A DNA stretch of 32,392 bases, from assembly GCA_017303995.1 (NCBI GenBank), contig JAFLBE010000049.1, forward strand, positions 1 to 32,392, in the 5' to 3' direction. The position numbers were made by a program, and so were the translations under genes. Below are positions 14,006 to 31,684 of the stretch, piece by piece. The notes beneath the pieces are model-generated. The model was not told the DNA's origin. It saw only the letters and a list, made by a program, of their open reading frames with translations, and ran no database searches. The first letter of the stretch is position 1, and every line of letters starts with the position of its first letter. This DNA comes from Bacteroidota bacterium. Lineage in GTDB: Bacteria; Bacteroidota; JABWAT01.

Positions 14006-14340
14006 AGGCCGGGGACAAGGGGGGTTACGGGTCACATATTACGGGTTACGGGGAATACGGAAAAACAATAAATCATGAATTACGGAGACGGGTCTGAGAC
14101 CCGTCTCTACCAAAATTCGAATTTCATTAAAAAAACTCCCCCCGCTCTGAGGACTCTGTGATAAACTCTGCGATCCTCTGTGGTTAAATGTTCCCCAGGA
14201 GACGCGATGAATCGTGTCTCTACCAAAAATTCGAATTTCATTAAAAAACTCCCTCCGCTTTGCGTTCCCTGCGACTTTGCGAGCAAATCTCCTTTTCCCT
14301 TTGTATTTTTATCCCATTCCATGAAGACCAGGAAACGACC
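14006..14340. repeat. Heptamer array and duplicated palindrome units
   Basis: No gene is present. Four seven-base units lie at 14022-14049 (GGGTTAC, GGGTCAC, ATATTAC, GGGTTAC). A perfect palindrome follows, GAGACGGGTC (14085-14094) and GACCCGTCTC (14098-14107), then a ~42-base tail (14108-14149). A second copy has arms GAGACGCGAT and ATCGTGTCTC (14199-14220) and the same tail (14221-14262) with a few changes. Between and after them are CTCTGTG/TTTGCG-type strings of a kind seen in many bacterial genomes. The final ~40 bases should hold the promoter of the oxidoreductase genes. Confidence 0.75.
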
Positions 14341-16777: not shown

Positions 16778-16794
16778 GGTTTAAGGTTAAAGGA
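16774..16794 (+). repeat. Short heptamer array at the end of the beta-gamma gene
   Basis: GTAAGGT, TTAAGGT and TAAAGGA follow one another in phase, the first containing the TAA stop codon. Only about three units, so on its own this could be chance. It is listed because it matches the longer arrays at other gene ends. Confidence 0.45.
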
Positions 16795-17121: not shown

Positions 17122-18171
17122 ATGAACTCACCCATCCTCGCCATCAGAAAATTGGGATTCCAATGGGAAACTCAGGATCCATTTTTATTTTGTGTTCATC
17201 ACCTAGATCATTATCCGGCAGGTAACGATGAATTTGGTCCGGCAGCATCTCTTGCCGGCCATAATATCGGACAGGATTTTTCCACTAAAGATGGCTGGCG
17301 CATGTATCACGGTGAAACCGTTCCTGGTTTCCCTGCGCATCCGCATCGTGGATTTGAAACGGTAACGATCGTTCTGAAGGGTTTTGTTGATCACTCAGAT
17401 TCTCATGGTTCTGAAGGTCGTTATGGCGATGGTGATGTTCAGTGGATGACAGCAGGTTCCGGTTTGCAGCATTCTGAAATGTTTCCGTTGCTGGATAAAA
17501 ACAATCCAAACCCCATGGAACTTTTCCAGATTTGGATCAATCTGCCCAAAGCAAAGAAGTTTGCTTCCCCATTCTATAAAATGCTCTGGTCAGAAGACAT
17601 CCCCACATTTTCACAAACGGATGAAAAAGGGGAAAAAACAGAAATCACCGTCATTGCCGGTAAAATAGAGGAAGTTGTTCCGCCGGCACCTGCACCTGAT
17701 TCCTGGGCGTTTCCATCCGAAAATGAAGTCGCCATCTGGATTATTAAAATGGAAGCCGGTGCAGTGTTTACACTTCCTCCTGCTTCAAGCGGAGTAAACC
17801 GTTCCCTTTATTTTTACAGGGGTTCTGCGGTTACCATAGCTGGTACACTCATTAAACCCATGCATTCTGTTGAGTTAAAGTCAGATGAACCTGTATTGAT
17901 TGGAAATGGTGATCAGGAAGGATATTTACTTTTGCTTCAGGGAAAACCGATTGCTGAACAGGTGGTTCAGCATGGTCCGTTCGTGATGAATTCGGTTGAA
18001 GAAATTCATCAGGCCTTTAATGATTACCGAAAAACCCAGTTTGGTGGCTGGCCTTTTAAACGATACGACAACGTTCATCCGAGGGAAAAAGGCCGGTTTG
18101 CATCGTATTCTGATGGTCGGAAAGAAGAAAAGCCAGCTACAAGTGATAAGTTAAAAAGTTATAAGTTATAA
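17122..18171 (+). CDS. Pirin family protein
   Basis: 349 residues in the bicupin fold of pirins. The N-terminal cupin carries the four metal ligands H73, H75 (HPHRGFET), H117 and E119 (QHSEM), as in human pirin and YhhW. Family members include quercetinases and redox-sensing regulators; the substrate here is unknown. The protein is about 50 residues longer than usual. I start at the ATG at 17122 (MNSPILAIRK), because an earlier in-frame ATG at 17014 would translate the inverted repeat copy. The last nine residues (SDKLKSYKL) and the TAA stop are encoded by a seven-base tandem array, so the native end was probably altered. It faces the pyrophosphatase gene tail to tail. Confidence 0.9.
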   Translation: MNSPILAIRKLGFQWETQDPFLFCVHHLDHYPAGNDEFGPAASLAGHNIGQDFSTKDGWRMYHGETVPGFPAHPHRGFETVTIVLKGFVDHSDSHGSEGRYGDGDVQWMTAGSGLQHSEMFPLLDKNNPNPMELFQIWINLPKAKKFASPFYKMLWSEDIPTFSQTDEKGEKTEITVIAGKIEEVVPPAPAPDSWAFPSENEVAIWIIKMEAGAVFTLPPASSGVNRSLYFYRGSAVTIAGTLIKPMHSVELKSDEPVLIGNGDQEGYLLLLQGKPIAEQVVQHGPFVMNSVEEIHQAFNDYRKTQFGGWPFKRYDNVHPREKGRFASYSDGRKEEKPATSDKLKSYKL

Positions 18172-18190
18172 GTTATAAGTTATAAGTGAT
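18141..18190 (+). repeat. Heptamer array spanning the pirin stop codon
   Basis: Four perfect AAGTTAT units (18156-18183) are flanked by variants AAGTGAT, AAGTTAA and AAGTGAT, with one single-base slip at 18155. The pirin stop codon (18169-18171) lies inside. As seven is not a multiple of three, the TAA in each unit appears in all three frames within three units. Confidence 0.9.
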
Positions 18191-18234
18191 AGGTGGAAGG
18201 TAAAAGTTGAATATTAATAAAAAGATTGCATTTG

Positions 18235-18288
18235 TTTGGTACAAAGCTGGGCACTTCGACTCCGCTCAGTGACCAGCATTGTACCAAA
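18235..18288. terminator. Long hairpin carrying the 26-base core repeat, between convergent genes
   Basis: The arm at 18235-18250 (TTTGGTACAAAGCTGG) pairs with 18273-18288 (CCAGCATTGTACCAAA) at 15 of 16 positions around a 22-base loop. The loop plus the innermost two stem pairs and adjacent bases form a 26-base core (GGGCACTTCGAC...CAGTGACC, 18249-18274) identical to a copy at 31079-31104. Placed midway between the ends of pirin and pyrophosphatase, it could stop transcription from both sides. Confidence 0.55.
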
Positions 18289-18294
18289 TTCTTC

Positions 18295-18322
18295 ACTTAC
18301 CACTTATAACTTGTAACTTATC
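18295..18322 (-). repeat. Heptamer array directly after the pyrophosphatase stop codon
   Basis: Four units in perfect phase on the plus strand: ACTTACC, ACTTATA, ACTTGTA, ACTTATC. Read in the sense of the minus-strand gene they are of GATAAGT/TATAAGT/GGTAAGT type and begin one base after the TAG stop (18326-18324). Nearly the same units follow the GAF gene at 28848-28868. Confidence 0.85.
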
Positions 18323-18323
18323 C

Positions 18324-19007
18324 CTACCCCTTCAAAGCCTTGGTCAGCATTTCTTCAATATCACCATACTCACGGTGATAATCGGCATGACTGCGGTTAA
18401 TGACTTCATACGCTTCGATTTTATTGTAAATGTGGGTAATTTCTACTTTTTTTCGTGGTGTTGAGCCAGGAATCGATTTATAAGTCAGAAAATAATGGCG
18501 AAGGCGTTCAATTATTCCAACCGGGACATCACCTATATCATTCCACTTTCCATAAAGTGCATCCCCTTTCATAACGGCAATGATTTTATCATCAGCTTCA
18601 TCTCCGTCAATCATTCGCATGCCGCCAATTGGAATACACTGCATCAGAATATCACCGTGAGAAATTGTTTTCTCTGTTAGAACGCAAATATCCAGAGGAT
18701 CACCATCACCCAAAATACCGGGTCTTCCCACTTTTTCTGAACAATATTCACCCACAAGCTCATCACAATAAGTCTGTGGAATAAGACCATAAAGAGTCGG
18801 ACAAATATTTGAAAACAATTGAGGACGATCAACTTTTAAATATCCGGTTTGCTTATCAAGCTCATATTTAATGGTATCAGTCGGAACAATCTCAATATAG
18901 GCACCCACAACTTCAGGAGCCTGCTCCCCGATTGGGATTCCGTGCCACGGATGTGCACGAAACAACATTCCCATCATTTTCCAAACTGAATCCTTTTTCC
19001 GGGCCAT
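18324..19007 (-). CDS. ppa: Inorganic pyrophosphatase, family I
   Basis: 227 residues. The family I signature DGDPLDICVL (D101, D103, D106) is intact, preceded by the substrate-binding stretch IEIVPTDTIKYELDKQTG and YGLIPQTY. It hydrolyses pyrophosphate to two phosphates in the cytosol and so pulls biosynthetic reactions forward. It is longer than the ~175-residue bacterial standard, with an N-terminal extension of about 30 residues like that in larger family members. AAGGAG lies eight bases before the ATG. The TTTATTTATCCC string at 19069-19058 upstream resembles strings before several other genes. Confidence 0.93.
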   Translation of the reverse strand: MARKKDSVWKMMGMLFRAHPWHGIPIGEQAPEVVGAYIEIVPTDTIKYELDKQTGYLKVDRPQLFSNICPTLYGLIPQTYCDELVGEYCSEKVGRPGILGDGDPLDICVLTEKTISHGDILMQCIPIGGMRMIDGDEADDKIIAVMKGDALYGKWNDIGDVPVGIIERLRHYFLTYKSIPGSTPRKKVEITHIYNKIEAYEVINRSHADYHREYGDIEEMLTKALKG

Positions 19008-20325: not shown

Positions 20326-21579
20326 ATGACAACTGAAGAATTAATTTCAAATTTAAAAAATGTCAGAAAGGCCAGCCGGAAACTGGTAACTCTTTCCGAT
20401 TTTGAAATCAACCAAATTTTGATTTCGATCGCCGATAAAGCACAATTTGCATCTGCTGAAATCCTTGCAGCCAATCAAAAAGATCTGGCAAGGATGGATC
20501 CAAACAACCCGAAATATGACCGGTTGCTACTTAATGAGAACCGCCTGACTTCCATTTGCCAGGATATCAGGAAAGTTGCAGAATTAACATCCCCGCTGAA
20601 TCACAAGCTCGAAGCTGTTGACCGGCCCAATGGACTGCATATTGAACGGATTTCGGTTCCGCTTGGTGTTGTTGCCATTGTTTTTGAATCCCGCCCGAAT
20701 GTAACGTTTGATGTGGTTGCTCTTTGCCTGAAATCAGGGAATGCCTGTGTATTAAAAGGCAGTCGTGATGCTCAGGATTCAAACCGGGCAATCGTTGAAG
20801 TCATTCAGTCAGTTCTACGGGAGCACGATCTTGAACAAACCGTTTATCTTGCACCCTCTGAACGTGAGTTCTTGCCTGTTATTCTCAATGCAGTCAATGA
20901 AATTGATGTGGTAATCCCACGAGGAAGTCAGGAACTCATCAATGCAGTCAGGGAAATGTCGAAAGTCCCAGTCATTGAAACCGGTGCCGGTATCGTTCAC
21001 ACCTATTTTGATGCCACCGGTGATCTTGAAAAAGGAAAAGCGATCATCACCAATGCAAAAGCACGAAGAGTTAGTGTATGCAATGCCCTGGATACCCTGA
21101 TAATCCACGAAAGCAGACTTGCCGAATTGCCTGAATTGCTGAGTGAGTTAGGTGAAAAGTATAAAGCAGAAGTATTTGCGGATGAAAAAGCAGAGAACGT
21201 GCTCCGGGGGCAGTATCAGGGAACTCTTCATCAGGCAACAAACGAAGATTTCGGTCAGGAGTTTCTTTCAATGAAGCTATCTGTCAAAACAGTATCCTCA
21301 CTTGATGAGGCTTTGGAGCACATTTCACTTTACAGTTCACGGCACAGTGAAGCAATTGTATCAGAAGACCAGGCTTCTATTGAACTTTTTTTGAAATCAG
21401 TTGATGCGGCTGTGGTTTATGCGAATTCGTCAACTGCTTTTACAGATGGCGGAGAGTTTGGAATGGGCGCAGAAATCGGAATCAGCACTCAAAAGCTCCA
21501 TGCAAGAGGACCAATGGCACTTCGTGAGTTGACCAGTTACAAATGGATTGTAACCGGTAACGGACAAATCAGATCTTAA
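20326..21579 (+). CDS. proA: Gamma-glutamyl phosphate reductase
   Basis: Second enzyme of proline synthesis: NADPH-dependent reduction of gamma-glutamyl phosphate to glutamate semialdehyde. 417 residues, the normal size, with an aldehyde-dehydrogenase fold. [17 protein letters not shown] (111-127) and the catalytic cysteine C252 in [11 protein letters not shown] are present, as is the C-terminal [17 protein letters not shown]. Starts three bases after the proB stop. Its TAA stop overlaps the TAA of ackA on the other strand within a TTAA palindrome. proC is not in the window. Confidence 0.97.
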
Positions 21580-22793
21580 TCGTTTACAATCTTCTGAACA
21601 CCAAAGATAATTTTGATGGTATCACGGGCAATCACCAGTTCTTCATTGGTAGGAACAACCCAAACCTGAGTTTTTGAACTTTTTGTTGTGATTTTGCGCT
21701 CTTTGGGTCCGTTGTTATTGGCTTCTTTATCCAACTTAACGCCTAAAAACTCCATCCCAGCTAAAACGTGCTCCCGAACCAAAGCTGCATTTTCGCCGAT
21801 GCCACCAGTAAAAACAATGGCATCAACACCGCCTAAAGCTGCTGCGTATGACCCAATGTATTTCTTCACGCGGTAACAGAAAATATCAAAGGCATTTTTT
21901 GCCTTTTTATCGCCATTTTCCATCTCCTGAATAATTTCACGCATATCACTGGAAACGCCTGAAATTCCCATCAATCCCGAGTGTTTGTTCAGAAGTGTAT
22001 TTGCTGAACTGAGACTCAACTCTTCCTTGTTCATGATGAACAGAATGGTTGACGGATCCAGATCTCCGGAACGGGTTCCCATAAGCAACCCTTCTAGCGG
22101 AGTGAACCCCATTGACGTGTCCTGAGACAATCCATTTAATATGGCGGCCATCGAACACCCATTTCCAAGGTGAATAGTAATGACTTTTGAGTTTTCTTTT
22201 TCAAGTCCGGAAATGGAGTAAAGCCGGTTGCTCACATAAAAATGTGACGTACCATGAAATCCGTACCTGCGAATTTTATGGCGTTTGTATAAAACATAAG
22301 GTAAGCCGTAAAGAAAGGCTTTTTCTGGGAGGGTTTGATGGAAAGCCGTATCAAAAACTGCAACTTGGGGTTTTCCAGGAAGATTCCGTGAACAAGCGTC
22401 AATTCCCTTCAGATTTGCCGGATTGTGAAGCGGAGCCAGTTCAATGGTATCCCTGATTTCATTATAAACTTTGGGTGTAATCAGAACAGAGTGATTAAAA
22501 GTTTCTCCACCATGAACAACCCTGTGCCCAATTGCAGCGATTTCATTCAATTCAGCCATAACTCCATGGTTTTTTGAGAGCAGAACACCCAGAATGTATT
22601 CCAAAGCCTGGGCGTGATCCAGAATTTCGCCTGTAACTTTGATGGCCTGCTCAAAATCCCGTTTGTGCGTTAAAATTGCACCAGACATCCCGATTCGTTC
22701 AACTGTTCCAACAGCACGGGTTGCTTCTGTCTCAGCTTCAATGACCTGATATTTTATTGAGGATGAACCGCAGTTTAGGGTAAGAATTAACAT
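21576..22793 (-). CDS. ackA: Acetate kinase
   Basis: Interconverts acetate + ATP and acetyl phosphate + ADP. 405 residues, family-typical length. Visible signatures are [13 protein letters not shown] at the start, GHRVVHGGE, the [10 protein letters not shown] loop, [22 protein letters not shown] and the nucleotide-binding FTGGIGENA. No phosphotransacetylase (pta) is adjacent, though ack-pta is the common pair; it must be elsewhere if this enzyme makes ATP from acetyl-CoA produced by the oxidoreductase in this window. A heptamer array of TTATGAA type ends upstream at 22808, 15 bases from the ATG, and no strong ribosome-binding site is seen. Confidence 0.96.
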
Positions 22794-23101
22794 GATTGTC
22801 TTTTAACTTATGAATTATGAATTTTGAATGATAAACTGTAATTTTTATGAGGACCAACAAGGAAACAATTCATACAAAGTGGTTGGCATTTAAGGTTTGT
22901 TGTTAAAAAATTTCATGGATTCCTCCCGCTTGCGGGACGGGAATGACAGCTCTCTCAGAAATGATAAAAACAATGAATTTGTCATCCCCGCGAAGGCGGG
23001 GATCCAGTATGTTATTATTTTTAAACAGCCATTCAACCCAATTCTTACGCCTTATGCCTTATGCCTTATGCCTTACGCCTAACAGCCAACAGCTTCCTCT
23101 C
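22794..23101. repeat. Gene-free spacer with two heptamer arrays and an inverted hairpin pair
   Basis: From ackA outward: units TTATGAA, TTATGAA, TTTTGAA, TGATAAA at 22808-22835. A hairpin repeat in minus orientation follows at 22915-22947 (inner stem TCCCGC/GCGGGA), then a plus-oriented one at 22981-23007 (stem ATCCCCGC/GCGGGGAT, loop GAAG). An array of eight seven-base units at 23042-23097, mostly GCCTTAT, leads to the stop codon of the dehydrogenase gene. In the sense of that gene the units read ATAAGGC and GTTAGGC, and the stop triplet itself falls in phase (TAGGAGA). The ackA promoter must lie within or beside these repeats. Confidence 0.85.
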
Positions 23102-24016
23102 CTATTTTTCCTCTTCGTATTTGAAAAAGCCTTCCCCCGATTTTTTCCCGAGCTTGCCTTCTCTCACCATTCTGCGCAAAACCGGAGCTGGCCGGAATTT
23201 AGGTTCACCCAATTGCTGCCAGAGCTGTTCCATCCACATGAGAACATCATCAAGTCCCATCATATCAGCAAGTGCAAGCGGACCTGTCTGAAATCCGTAA
23301 CCAAGCTTCATGGCAGTATCAATACCTTCGGCTGTTGCAATTCCCTCACTGAAAACCTGCATGGCTTCGTTTATCATCGGAATGATAACACGTGTAGTGA
23401 CAAACCCCGGATATTCAAAAACCTCGACCACTTTTTTGCCCAGCTGGTTTTCTGCAAATTCCTTTACCATCGTAAAGGTTTCGTCTGATGTTTTCATTGC
23501 CCTGATCAGTTCAACCAGAGGAATTTTCGGAACCGGATTCAGAAAGTGCATTCCGATCACACGATCGGGGCGGTTGGTTTCGTCTGCGAGTTTTGTAAGA
23601 TTCAATGTTGAAGTATTGCTGACAATTACAGTTGAGGGATCACAAGCCTGATCCAGTAAATGAAACAACCGTTTTTTCAAACCGAAATCTTCATTAATTG
23701 CTTCAATAATTATTGGACAGTGGGCAGCATCTTCAATTTTCCCTGTCGTTTTGATGCGCGACATGATCGATTTTTTTTCACCAATCGTGAGCGACCAACG
23801 TTCAATTTCCTGATTCATGCTGCTTTCAAGGTGTTTAAGGGCAACTTCAGCAAGTTTCTCATTTTTTTCAACGAGAATAACTTCAATACCATTTGATGAC
23901 GCGGTTTGGGCAATGCCCTGCCCCATTATCCCGCCACCAATTACTGCAATCTGCGGAATAAATTTGTTTTCCTGCGTTGATTGTTTCGTTTTAAGTTCAT
24001 CAAGTGAATGTATCAT
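23102..24016 (-). CDS. 3-hydroxyacyl-CoA dehydrogenase (3-hydroxybutyryl-CoA dehydrogenase type)
   Basis: 304 residues. A Rossmann NAD-binding domain starts at residue ~21 (IAVIGGGIMGQGIAQ). The active-site region has S136, H157 (GMHFLNPVP) and E169, and a helical C-terminal domain begins at ~204. At the position of the usual catalytic-pocket asparagine (GFVVNR in clostridial Hbd) this protein has GFVTTR. That resembles the MmgB-like branch (GFVTSR) as I recall it, so MmgB-type is more likely than Hbd proper. Expected reaction: NAD(P)-linked interconversion of 3-hydroxyacyl-CoA and 3-oxoacyl-CoA. The first 18 residues precede the family start. Its ATG overlaps the stop of the lipoprotein gene by four bases. 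Confidence 0.9.
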   Translation of the reverse strand: MIHSLDELKTKQSTQENKFIPQIAVIGGGIMGQGIAQTASSNGIEVILVEKNEKLAEVALKHLESSMNQEIERWSLTIGEKKSIMSRIKTTGKIEDAAHCPIIIEAINEDFGLKKRLFHLLDQACDPSTVIVSNTSTLNLTKLADETNRPDRVIGMHFLNPVPKIPLVELIRAMKTSDETFTMVKEFAENQLGKKVVEVFEYPGFVTTRVIIPMINEAMQVFSEGIATAEGIDTAMKLGYGFQTGPLALADMMGLDDVLMWMEQLWQQLGEPKFRPAPVLRRMVREGKLGKKSGEGFFKYEEEK

Positions 24017-28083: not shown

Positions 28084-28833
28084 ATGAAGCATGTTACACG
28101 CGAACAGGCCATTCAATCTGCAGCAAATTTAATTTCAGCAGCAGAATCCGGCGAACACATTGTCATTACAGACAATGACAAAACAATCGCCCAGATTTTG
28201 CAGTGCGATAAAGAAACCCTTGATATCAATTATCTCCACAATCTTACCGAAAAACTGATCCGCGTCATTTTACCGCTCGGACTTAAACTTTCTGCAGAAA
28301 AAGATCTGAACAAACTACTCGAACTTATTTTGCTTGAAGCACAGGATATTTGCGGTGCAGATGGCGGAACTCTTTATCTCCGTGGAAGAAACCACGAACT
28401 TAAATTTGTAAACATCCGTACCAAATCGTTGAAACTTGCCGCTGGCGGTTCAACCGGGAACCCGATTACCCTTCCGCCATTAAAAATTCTTGAAGACGGA
28501 ACCGGGAAACCAAACCTTAAATTTGCTGCCACCTGGGTGTGTATCAACGGAAAAACCTTAAACATTCCGGACGTTTATCACTCATCCGAATTTGATTTTT
28601 CGGGTGCTAAAAGATTTGATCAGGGAAATAATTACAAAACGGTTTCCTGTCTTTCCGTTCCGCTTCAGGATAATGATAAAAATGCGTTGGGAGTCATTCA
28701 ATTGATTAATGCAACTGAACCGGTTACAGGAAAAATAATTCCGTTTAATAAGTTTCTGGTTCAGATTGTGGAATCGATGGCCTTGCAGGCTTCTGCGGCT
28801 TTACAGAATCATATTGAGAAGCTGAGGGGATAG
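28084..28833 (+). CDS. Stand-alone GAF-domain protein
   Basis: 249 residues, soluble. Residues 1-~60 are helical with no family I recognise. Residues ~65-245 are one GAF domain (NKLLELILLEAQDICGADGG, then SCLSVPLQD and LGVIQLINA), close in style to phosphodiesterase/cyclase GAF domains that bind cyclic nucleotides or other small ligands. No output domain is attached, so it must act through a partner or as a ligand buffer. It is transcribed alone, divergent from the aminopeptidase. AAGGA seven bases before the ATG supports the start. A heptamer array begins a few bases after its stop codon. A link to the PP2C signalling block is possible but unsupported by position. Confidence 0.85.
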   Translation: MKHVTREQAIQSAANLISAAESGEHIVITDNDKTIAQILQCDKETLDINYLHNLTEKLIRVILPLGLKLSAEKDLNKLLELILLEAQDICGADGGTLYLRGRNHELKFVNIRTKSLKLAAGGSTGNPITLPPLKILEDGTGKPNLKFAATWVCINGKTLNIPDVYHSSEFDFSGAKRFDQGNNYKTVSCLSVPLQDNDKNALGVIQLINATEPVTGKIIPFNKFLVQIVESMALQASAALQNHIEKLRG

Positions 28834-28836
28834 GAA

Positions 28837-28868
28837 TAGTTACAGGTGGTAAGTTATAAGTGGTAAGT
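28837..28868 (+). repeat. Heptamer array after the GAF gene
   Basis: GGTAAGT, TATAAGT, GGTAAGT in phase at 28848-28868, preceded by a less regular TAGTTAC-like unit, 14 bases past the TAG stop codon. Nearly identical to the sense-strand array after ppa. Confidence 0.75.
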
Positions 28869-31004: not shown

Positions 31005-31219
31005 ATGATAGAATATTGGGTGACCTGTGATATGTGATATGTCCCTCGATAATATCCCGAACACGTCCCACAAATAAAGGGCACTTCGACTCCGCTCAGT
31101 GACCTTTATTTACAATTTCAGGTAAACCGTACCTGGTTTTTGTGACCTGTGATCCGTGATTTGTGACCGGTATTTCGTCCCTAGTCCCCAGTCACTTGTC
31201 CCTCGTCCCTAGTCCCTGT
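31005..31219. repeat. Heptamer arrays flanking a core-repeat hairpin, 3' of bcp
   Basis: Three structured parts fill this gap. An 11-unit heptamer array occupies 31142-31218, every unit beginning GT on the plus strand (GTGACCT, GTGATCC ... GTCCCTA, GTCCCTG), and ends one base from the bcp stop codon. The second copy of the 26-base core (31079-31104) has local arms AAATAAAGG (31072-31080) and CCTTTATTT (31103-31111). A second array of four units of the same type lies at 31020-31047. A small stem CAGGTA/TACCTG sits at 31119-31135. The thiamine pyrophosphokinase promoter must lie in or near this DNA. Confidence 0.9.
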
Positions 31220-31684
31220 TTACAGAGTTTTCAAATCTTCAAGAATTTCTTTGGCGTGATCTTCAGGCTTTACCTTCGGATAGGTTTTCAGAATTTTACC
31301 GGTTTCCCCAATGATAAAAGTTGATCTGAAAATTCCCATGTACTTCCGGCCATACATTGATTTTTCACCATAAGCACCAAACGCTGATGAAAGCTCATTG
31401 TTCACATCAGCCCAAAGCGGAAAATTCAGATTGTACTTGGCAATAAATTTTTCGTGTTTCTTTTCATCATCACCCGAAACGCCAATTACCTGAATTCCGG
31501 CTGCTTTCAAATCAGCCTGTTCATCACGGAAACTGCAGGCTTCCTTTGTACAACCCGGTGTGTCATCTTTCGGATAGAAATACAAAACGACTTTTTTCCC
31601 GGCAAGATTTTTCAGGGAAACAGGTTTTCCATCCTGATCTTTTACCATGATATCAAGGGGGGCAAGATCACCAACTTTAAGCAT
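31220..31684 (-). CDS. bcp: Thiol peroxidase, Bcp/PrxQ-type peroxiredoxin
   Basis: 154 residues. Reduces hydrogen peroxide and organic hydroperoxides using thioredoxin. The motif FYPKDDTPGCTKEAC holds peroxidatic C45 and the resolving C50 five residues later, the atypical 2-Cys arrangement of PrxQ. T42 and the FRSTFIIGETG strand complete the active site. The ATG at 31684 has GGAG six bases upstream; a TTG one codon earlier is less likely. It lies 39 bases downstream of the antitoxin-like gene, possibly on the same transcript. A long heptamer array begins one base after its stop codon. Confidence 0.95.
   Translation of the reverse strand: MLKVGDLAPLDIMVKDQDGKPVSLKNLAGKKVVLYFYPKDDTPGCTKEACSFRDEQADLKAAGIQVIGVSGDDEKKHEKFIAKYNLNFPLWADVNNELSSAFGAYGEKSMYGRKYMGIFRSTFIIGETGKILKTYPKVKPEDHAKEILEDLKTL

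Follow-up and report, generated by a model that had tools for sequence, protein, structure and literature searches.

How a protein-coding gene can come to end inside a tandem repeat, and how its product survives changes in the number of repeat units, is the question raised by a pirin-family gene on the Bacteroidota contig JAFLBE010000049.1. The window, that is, the whole stretch of DNA analysed (32,392 nt), belongs to the genome referred to here as G000, which was compared with two genomes of the same genus (G001 and G002) and with other comparison genomes (G003, G004 and G028). G002 is the metagenome bin 'Bacteroidetes bacterium isolate BAC1' (JAIUNL010000002.1), and assemblies were used throughout.

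The heptamer array at the end of the pirin gene

The gene lies on the plus strand at 17122..18171 and encodes a protein of 349 aa when 17122 is taken as its probable start. Its matches to the Pfam families Pirin (9.2e-26) and Pirin_C (4.5e-20) are both above the curated cut-offs, identifying it as a member of the pirin family; they end at residue 308, and the protein terminates in ...GRKEEKPATSDKLKSYKL*. The analysis with TRF revealed a plus-strand array at 18141..18191, 51 nt long and sense to pirin, with period 7, consensus AAGTTAT, 7.1 copies, 86% matches and 4% indels. Read from the sequence, this AAGTKAT array is composed of two units (AAGTGAT at 18141-18147 and AAGTTAA at 18148-18154), one extra A at 18155 and five more units (four copies of AAGTTAT at 18156-18183 and AAGTGAT at 18184-18190), and it is followed on the same strand by a degenerate period-7 continuation with the units AGGTGGA, AGGTAAA and AGTTGAA (18191..18211). 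The array codes for the residues SDKLKSYKL (codons 341-349, 18142..18168), beginning with the S341 codon at 18142-18144, and the TAA stop codon (18169..18171) straddles two units at their junction. Sequence, TRF and translation agree in this respect with the earlier note, which had read the last nine residues and the TAA from AAGTKAT units.

The array was not a chance match, as revealed by shuffles and by counts across the genome. The window contains 13 occurrences of the 14-mer AAGTKATAAGTKAT with up to two mismatches, where 0.72 would be expected, and 0 of 100 shuffles reached 13; a 21-mer allowing up to three mismatches gave 158+141 matches in the G000 genome against 0 for the backwards control.

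Pirin homologues and the sister species

The homologue set was composed of the best 80 of 584 confirmed relatives together with the homologues from G001, G002 and G004, and provided 81 usable proteins after two with unresolved or truncated ends (L093 and L140) had been dropped and one representing the same locus as L002 (L061) had been omitted. The tail after the conserved GRFASY motif comprised 20 residues in G000, the longest of all, and 13 in G002; among the remaining 79 it varied from 8 to 17 residues, with a median of 9. The description of this protein as longer than usual pirins holds for the tail but not for the total of 349 aa, most of which is a trait of a subfamily whose members end at about query residues 332-341. 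When the homologues were compared for the position of the original stop, most of them were found to end level with G000 residues 337-339, at the onset of the array-coded part. Moreover, the terminal words SDKLK, KLKSYK and SYKL were absent from all 81 usable proteins except that of G000, so that the search for array-free orthologues with the same terminal residues, which would have spoken against the array as their source, returned none. Since most tails stop at 337-339 and none carries the G000 terminal words, the array took over at the usual end of the protein or a few codons after it. This supports the proposal that the array had grown into the gene or replaced its natural end, two routes that both fit the data and cannot be told apart.

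The pirin of G002 is 91% identical to that of G000, and the same array is found at the same gene. G002 stops inside the array at the TAA homologous to the G000 stop when units are counted from the 3′ side, and after the stop both genomes read GTTATAAGTTATAAGTGATA(G/C)GTGG. The segment from GAAGAAAAGCCA to AAGTGATA(G/C)GTGG measures 60 nt in G000. In G002 it is exactly 21 nt shorter (39 nt), which corresponds to three units and seven codons; the stop-proximal 3′ part is almost identical in the two genomes. The C-termini read ...KEEKPATSDKLKSYKL in G000 versus ...KEEKPLNQL in G002, and a gain in G000 and a loss in G002 both fit this difference and cannot be told apart. The pirin of G001 is 63% identical to that of G000 and has its own 17-residue tail and no array; it is likewise convergent with a pyrophosphatase gene, with about 16 nt and no array between the two stops.

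These comparisons support, with a probability of about 0.72, the reading that the final codons and the stop of pirin are now provided by a clade-specific heptamer satellite of unstable length. The satellite would have settled at this stop in the common ancestor of G000 and G002, its unit number would change by slippage or unequal recombination, and such changes would be tolerated because the tail beyond Pirin_C (after residue 308) is probably weakly constrained. The unit itself favours this outcome, for AAGTKAT presents a TAA at every unit junction. As 7 is not a multiple of 3 and each unit brings one TAA, three units provide a stop in each frame; a gene entering the array consequently ends within about 21 nt, in whichever frame and with whatever number of units, and the invasion of a weakly constrained C-terminus becomes nearly harmless. 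The sister species and the array-free relative illustrate that a non-coding satellite may occupy a gene end and rewrite the C-terminus with the protein unbroken, since a period of 7 nt that brings a stop with each unit leaves no frame open.

Stop shifts and unit turnover at other loci

That arrays of this type can move a stop codon, as the earlier note had claimed, was borne out at pirin, where the G002 array lacks three units and the protein loses seven residues at its C-terminus relative to G000, and at other single loci. At one of them (L196/L247), the protein ends in VKVGGGDKL* in G000, VKVGG* in G002 and VKVTG* in G001: a G-run of unequal length shifts the frame, and the array closes the new frame at a later TAA. 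At another (L177), AVVTSDKL* in G000 and G002 corresponds to AVKVE* in G001. Further differences were LKEKL* in G002, LKN* in G001 and, beside an array with a different unit, LKGR* in G000 (L229/L253), as well as GGNK* versus GGK* (L187/L165); one of the 17 stop pairs (L193/L211) was left unused on account of unresolved residues in the G000 reading.

Array lengths differed in most of 29 pairs, and by 21 nt at pirin, so that unit number varies between close relatives. C-terminal length differed in 6/28 pairs with an array at the stop versus 3/51 without one when the hand-picked loci were removed (p = 0.061), in 7/33 versus 3/60 when they were included (p = 0.031), and in 1/9 versus 2/20 in the least biased subset. 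The evidence that arrays move stops more often than the background is only suggestive.

Units are also exchanged. After position 1495 of one G000 locus (L055), an AAGTTAY array adjoins the same stop that is followed in G002 (L255) by about ten copies of GTGGTAC, which is a change of unit in place. By a divergent start (L171), AAGTTAT units give way, within a single run of 17 units, to about twelve copies of ACGTGGT, which suggests local homogenisation of the new unit.

Array position and polarity across the clade

To our knowledge, the survey of prokaryotic repeats by Mrazek et al. 2007 contains no gene-edge analysis of this clade. Here, arrays were sampled from the listed pattern matches (82 in G000 and 74 in G002), and gene edges were taken from a custom hexamer gene caller, not from annotation. 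The edge test covered the 152 arrays with both neighbours known that lay outside called genes, an edge being defined as -25..+10 nt. The 5′ end of the AAGTKAT strand was found at a gene edge in 93/152 of these sampled arrays and the 3′ end in only 9/152, whereas uniform placement, over 2000 trials, gave 24 edge cases on average and never more than 40. The 5′ end lay at 71/92 co-oriented stops and 22/60 divergent starts, and the 3′ end at 5/85 stops and 4/67 starts. Moreover, 35 sampled arrays overlapped the stop of a co-oriented gene, and the stops adjoined by AAGTKAT-type arrays belonged to many different genes. The same leaning was observed in 25 period-7 arrays of other units at the same loci, 23 of them with both neighbours: the 5′ end of their purine-rich strand lay at a stop in 7/14 cases and the 3′ end in 1/11. 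An array of opposite polarity was detected at an edge in 39/229 gaps by a lenient two-unit scan, a count that may be inflated by short gaps and loose matching and that speaks against a strict polarity rule. In the 107 loci of genomes outside the clade, only seven period-7 arrays were found, a number too small to extend the pattern beyond it.

An unbiased set, composed of regularly spaced 20-kb stretches, the window and its G002 counterpart, was scanned for periods 5-12 regardless of unit. Period 7 accounted for 27/27 gap arrays in G000 and 27/30 in G002, in many units, so that both genomes carry the dispersed tandem 7-nt arrays that characterize intergenic heptamer repeats; in the sampled stretches of G001 no gap array within this range of periods turned up, and those of G003 contained just one, with period 8. 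The post-stop lag-7 signal reached z = 9.4 in G000 and 7.6 in G002, versus 0.8 in G001 and -2.4 in G003, and in the two array-bearing genomes it peaked just after stops. The 5′ end of the purine strand lay within 12 nt of an edge in 9/27 unbiased arrays of G000 and 8/27 of G002 (1.9 and 1.7 expected), and the 3′ end in 2 in each genome. Since few of the unbiased arrays are found at edges, mixed-unit period-7 arrays are mostly located within gaps, and AAGTKAT follows the edge rule most strongly.

This polarity is not accounted for by slippage alone, and neither is the almost exclusive occurrence of period 7 in so many different units. One tentative and rather doubtful idea is that a clade-specific process builds period-7 repeats almost regardless of unit, anchored at gene edges and in one polarity, with units replaced in place. 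If so, many stop codons would evolve inside a satellite that closes every frame, and a period and polarity blind to the unit would suggest that a dedicated mechanism of copying or repair, and not ordinary slippage, is at work.

The convergent gap and alternative explanations

The pirin gene converges with an inorganic pyrophosphatase gene on the minus strand (18324..19007; Pfam Pyrophosphatase 6.9e-44). A few nucleotides after the TAG of the latter, an inverted AAGTKAT array was identified by sequence scan (18292..18321, minus strand), and between the two arrays lies a REP-like palindrome (18235..18288; inverted repeat I5, also seen in the fold) with locus-specific arms and the core GGGCACTTCGACTCCGCTCAGTGACC. 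The arrays could be functional elements of gene edges, such as parts of 3′ UTRs or terminators, kept there in that orientation by selection; the facing arrays and the palindrome would then form one long hairpin by which both convergent transcripts are terminated or shielded. The predicted RNA fold of 18141-18325 is indeed one long hairpin (z = -7.75) with the arrays as stem arms, the counterpart gap of G002 also folds into a long hairpin (z = -4.88) whose stem persists despite an inverted palindrome with other arms, and the polarity of the arrays is strong. Against these observations, the pairing follows automatically from two inverted arrays, a scan for intrinsic terminators revealed no U-run terminator at the pirin array, and period-7 arrays were absent from the sampled stretches of G001 and G003. 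Arrays at the two stops of convergent gaps, furthermore, occurred independently (both in 11, left only in 14, right only in 7 and neither in 11; p = 0.76), which gives no sign of selection for pairs and led to the rejection of obligate pairs of facing arrays. Such a function appears unlikely.

The array, the palindrome and the inverted array could otherwise form a single mobile composite element inserted between the two stops. This would account for the lengths of the pirin-pyrophosphatase gap (153 nt in G000 and 122 nt in G002, versus about 16 nt in G001) and for the distribution of matches to Y1_Tnp, the REP transposase family (7 in G000, 6 in G002, 1 in G001 and 0 in G003). The parts did not move together, however: between G000 and G002 the palindrome of the pirin gap changed its orientation and arms and both arrays stayed, and near window position 14020 a REP lies inside the post-stop array in G002 only, so that change was independent at two gaps. 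In addition, arrays at the two edges were paired no more often than by chance, as given above, and G028 has 52 heptamer-pattern matches and no Y1_Tnp match. An insertion of this kind is quite improbable. The REP transposase was likewise rejected as a cause of the arrays, because Y1_Tnp counts fit four genomes and fail in G028, which is rich in heptamers of another unit.

Shorter repeats act as contingency loci in other bacteria, and the difference in unit number between the sister species might suggest that unit changes switch or tune pirin within the population; this is very hard to credit, as a stop in every frame restricts unit changes to a short tail and the arrays adjoin the stops of many different genes. 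A chance or artefactual origin (low complexity at the gene end, a miscalled gene or a misassembly) has in its favour that repeats are assembly-prone and that the surveyed gene edges come from a simple custom caller, and it can practically be set aside, since the array is short (51 nt), is not reproduced by shuffling and is present at the same gene in the independent assembly of G002.

Relation to known heptamer repeats

The STRR heptamers of heterocystous cyanobacteria are dispersed tandem heptamers with several units per genome, which differ from AAGTKAT. MacGregor 2015 (PMC4679880) describes TAACTGA direct repeats in marine Beggiatoaceae, some Cyanobacteria and five Bacteroidetes, mostly intergenic, which carry a stop codon in each of the three frames when read forward and show 7-nt indels between Cyanothece strains. 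The reverse of AAGTTAT is ATAACTT, so that the arrays of G000 can be read as TAACTTA repeats, one base from TAACTGA; the exact TAACTGA unit is not that of the present consensus, and single-base variants of it were rare as repeats in the genome analysed there (PMC4679880). In Flexibacter litoralis, a stop is directly followed by a single reverse set, reading TCAGTTA in sense, with the same polarity as the AAGTKAT arrays (PMC4679880), and several of these arrays begin with TCAGTTA or TCAGTGG. The main site of TAACTGA, however, was just upstream of start codons (PMC4679880), whereas AAGTKAT is found mainly at stops (71/92) and only secondarily at divergent starts (22/60).

For Xanthomonas and Nostoc, Rehm et al. 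2015 (PMC4692102) report GGGAATC and GGGGA(C/T)T heptamers, located on the coding strand 0-50 nt downstream of ORFs, in some cases overlapping stops, and on the non-coding strand when upstream of ORFs, with lengths that vary at the same sites between close relatives; three heptanucleotides in Calothrix PCC 7601 are also mentioned. Their polarity is that of the AAGTKAT arrays, position being given there in 50-nt bins, and their units are G-rich and form quadruplexes (PMC4692102), unlike AAGTKAT, which has no G-run. Heptanucleotides were the commonest long prokaryotic simple sequence repeats in the general survey of Mrazek et al. 2007, as cited in PMC4679880 and PMC4692102, where a polymerase-linked slippage preference is said to have been proposed, and period 7 is dominant there as it is here.

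Heptamer arrays that overlap stops or close all three frames, strain differences in steps of 7 nt and an identical polarity of another unit have already been described (PMC4679880, PMC4692102), and the clade-wide period and polarity are the part worth following. No report of AAGTTAT arrays in this group was encountered in the literature searched, whose coverage of subscription journals was thin. The gene-edge polarity, resolved here to the nucleotide, matches that described for the unrelated Xanthomonas unit (PMC4692102), and the site choice of bacterial heptamer arrays can now be tested by comparing close genomes with and without arrays.

Other arrays and minor observations

Three further arrays were detected by TRF in the window. 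An AAGTKAT array on the plus strand (28838..28868) lies 3 nt after the stop of a gene ending at 28833, with the same polarity as at pirin. Two arrays with other sense units lie on the minus strand behind minus-strand genes: AGGGACN (31177..31217) follows the stop of 31220-31684 at a distance of 2 nt, and TAAGGCA (23044..23080) that of 23102-24016 at about 21 nt. The REP-like palindrome GGGCACTTCGACTCCGCTCAGTGACC recurs at 18249-18274 and 31079-31104, with complementary arms that differ at each locus.

Two candidate rules of array placement were rejected. Selection of units for a stop on the sense strand was discarded because 13/20 unit families contained one versus a shuffled mean of 12.3, which composition explains. 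Lys-stop ends were considered as insertion sites, the last residue being Lys in 30/71 array-adjacent genes versus 61/293 (p = 0.0004), an excess that is partly circular since the arrays themselves code AAG-TGA.

After the stop of the gene preceding pirin (16778-16791), G000 reads GGTTTAA GGTTAAA and G002 is exactly one 7-nt unit shorter; this one-unit difference indicates that unit turnover also touches short, degenerate post-stop repeats. Finally, the minus-strand gene 21576-22793 is closely preceded at its start by TTATGAA-type heptamers (22804-22830), with more units in G002.
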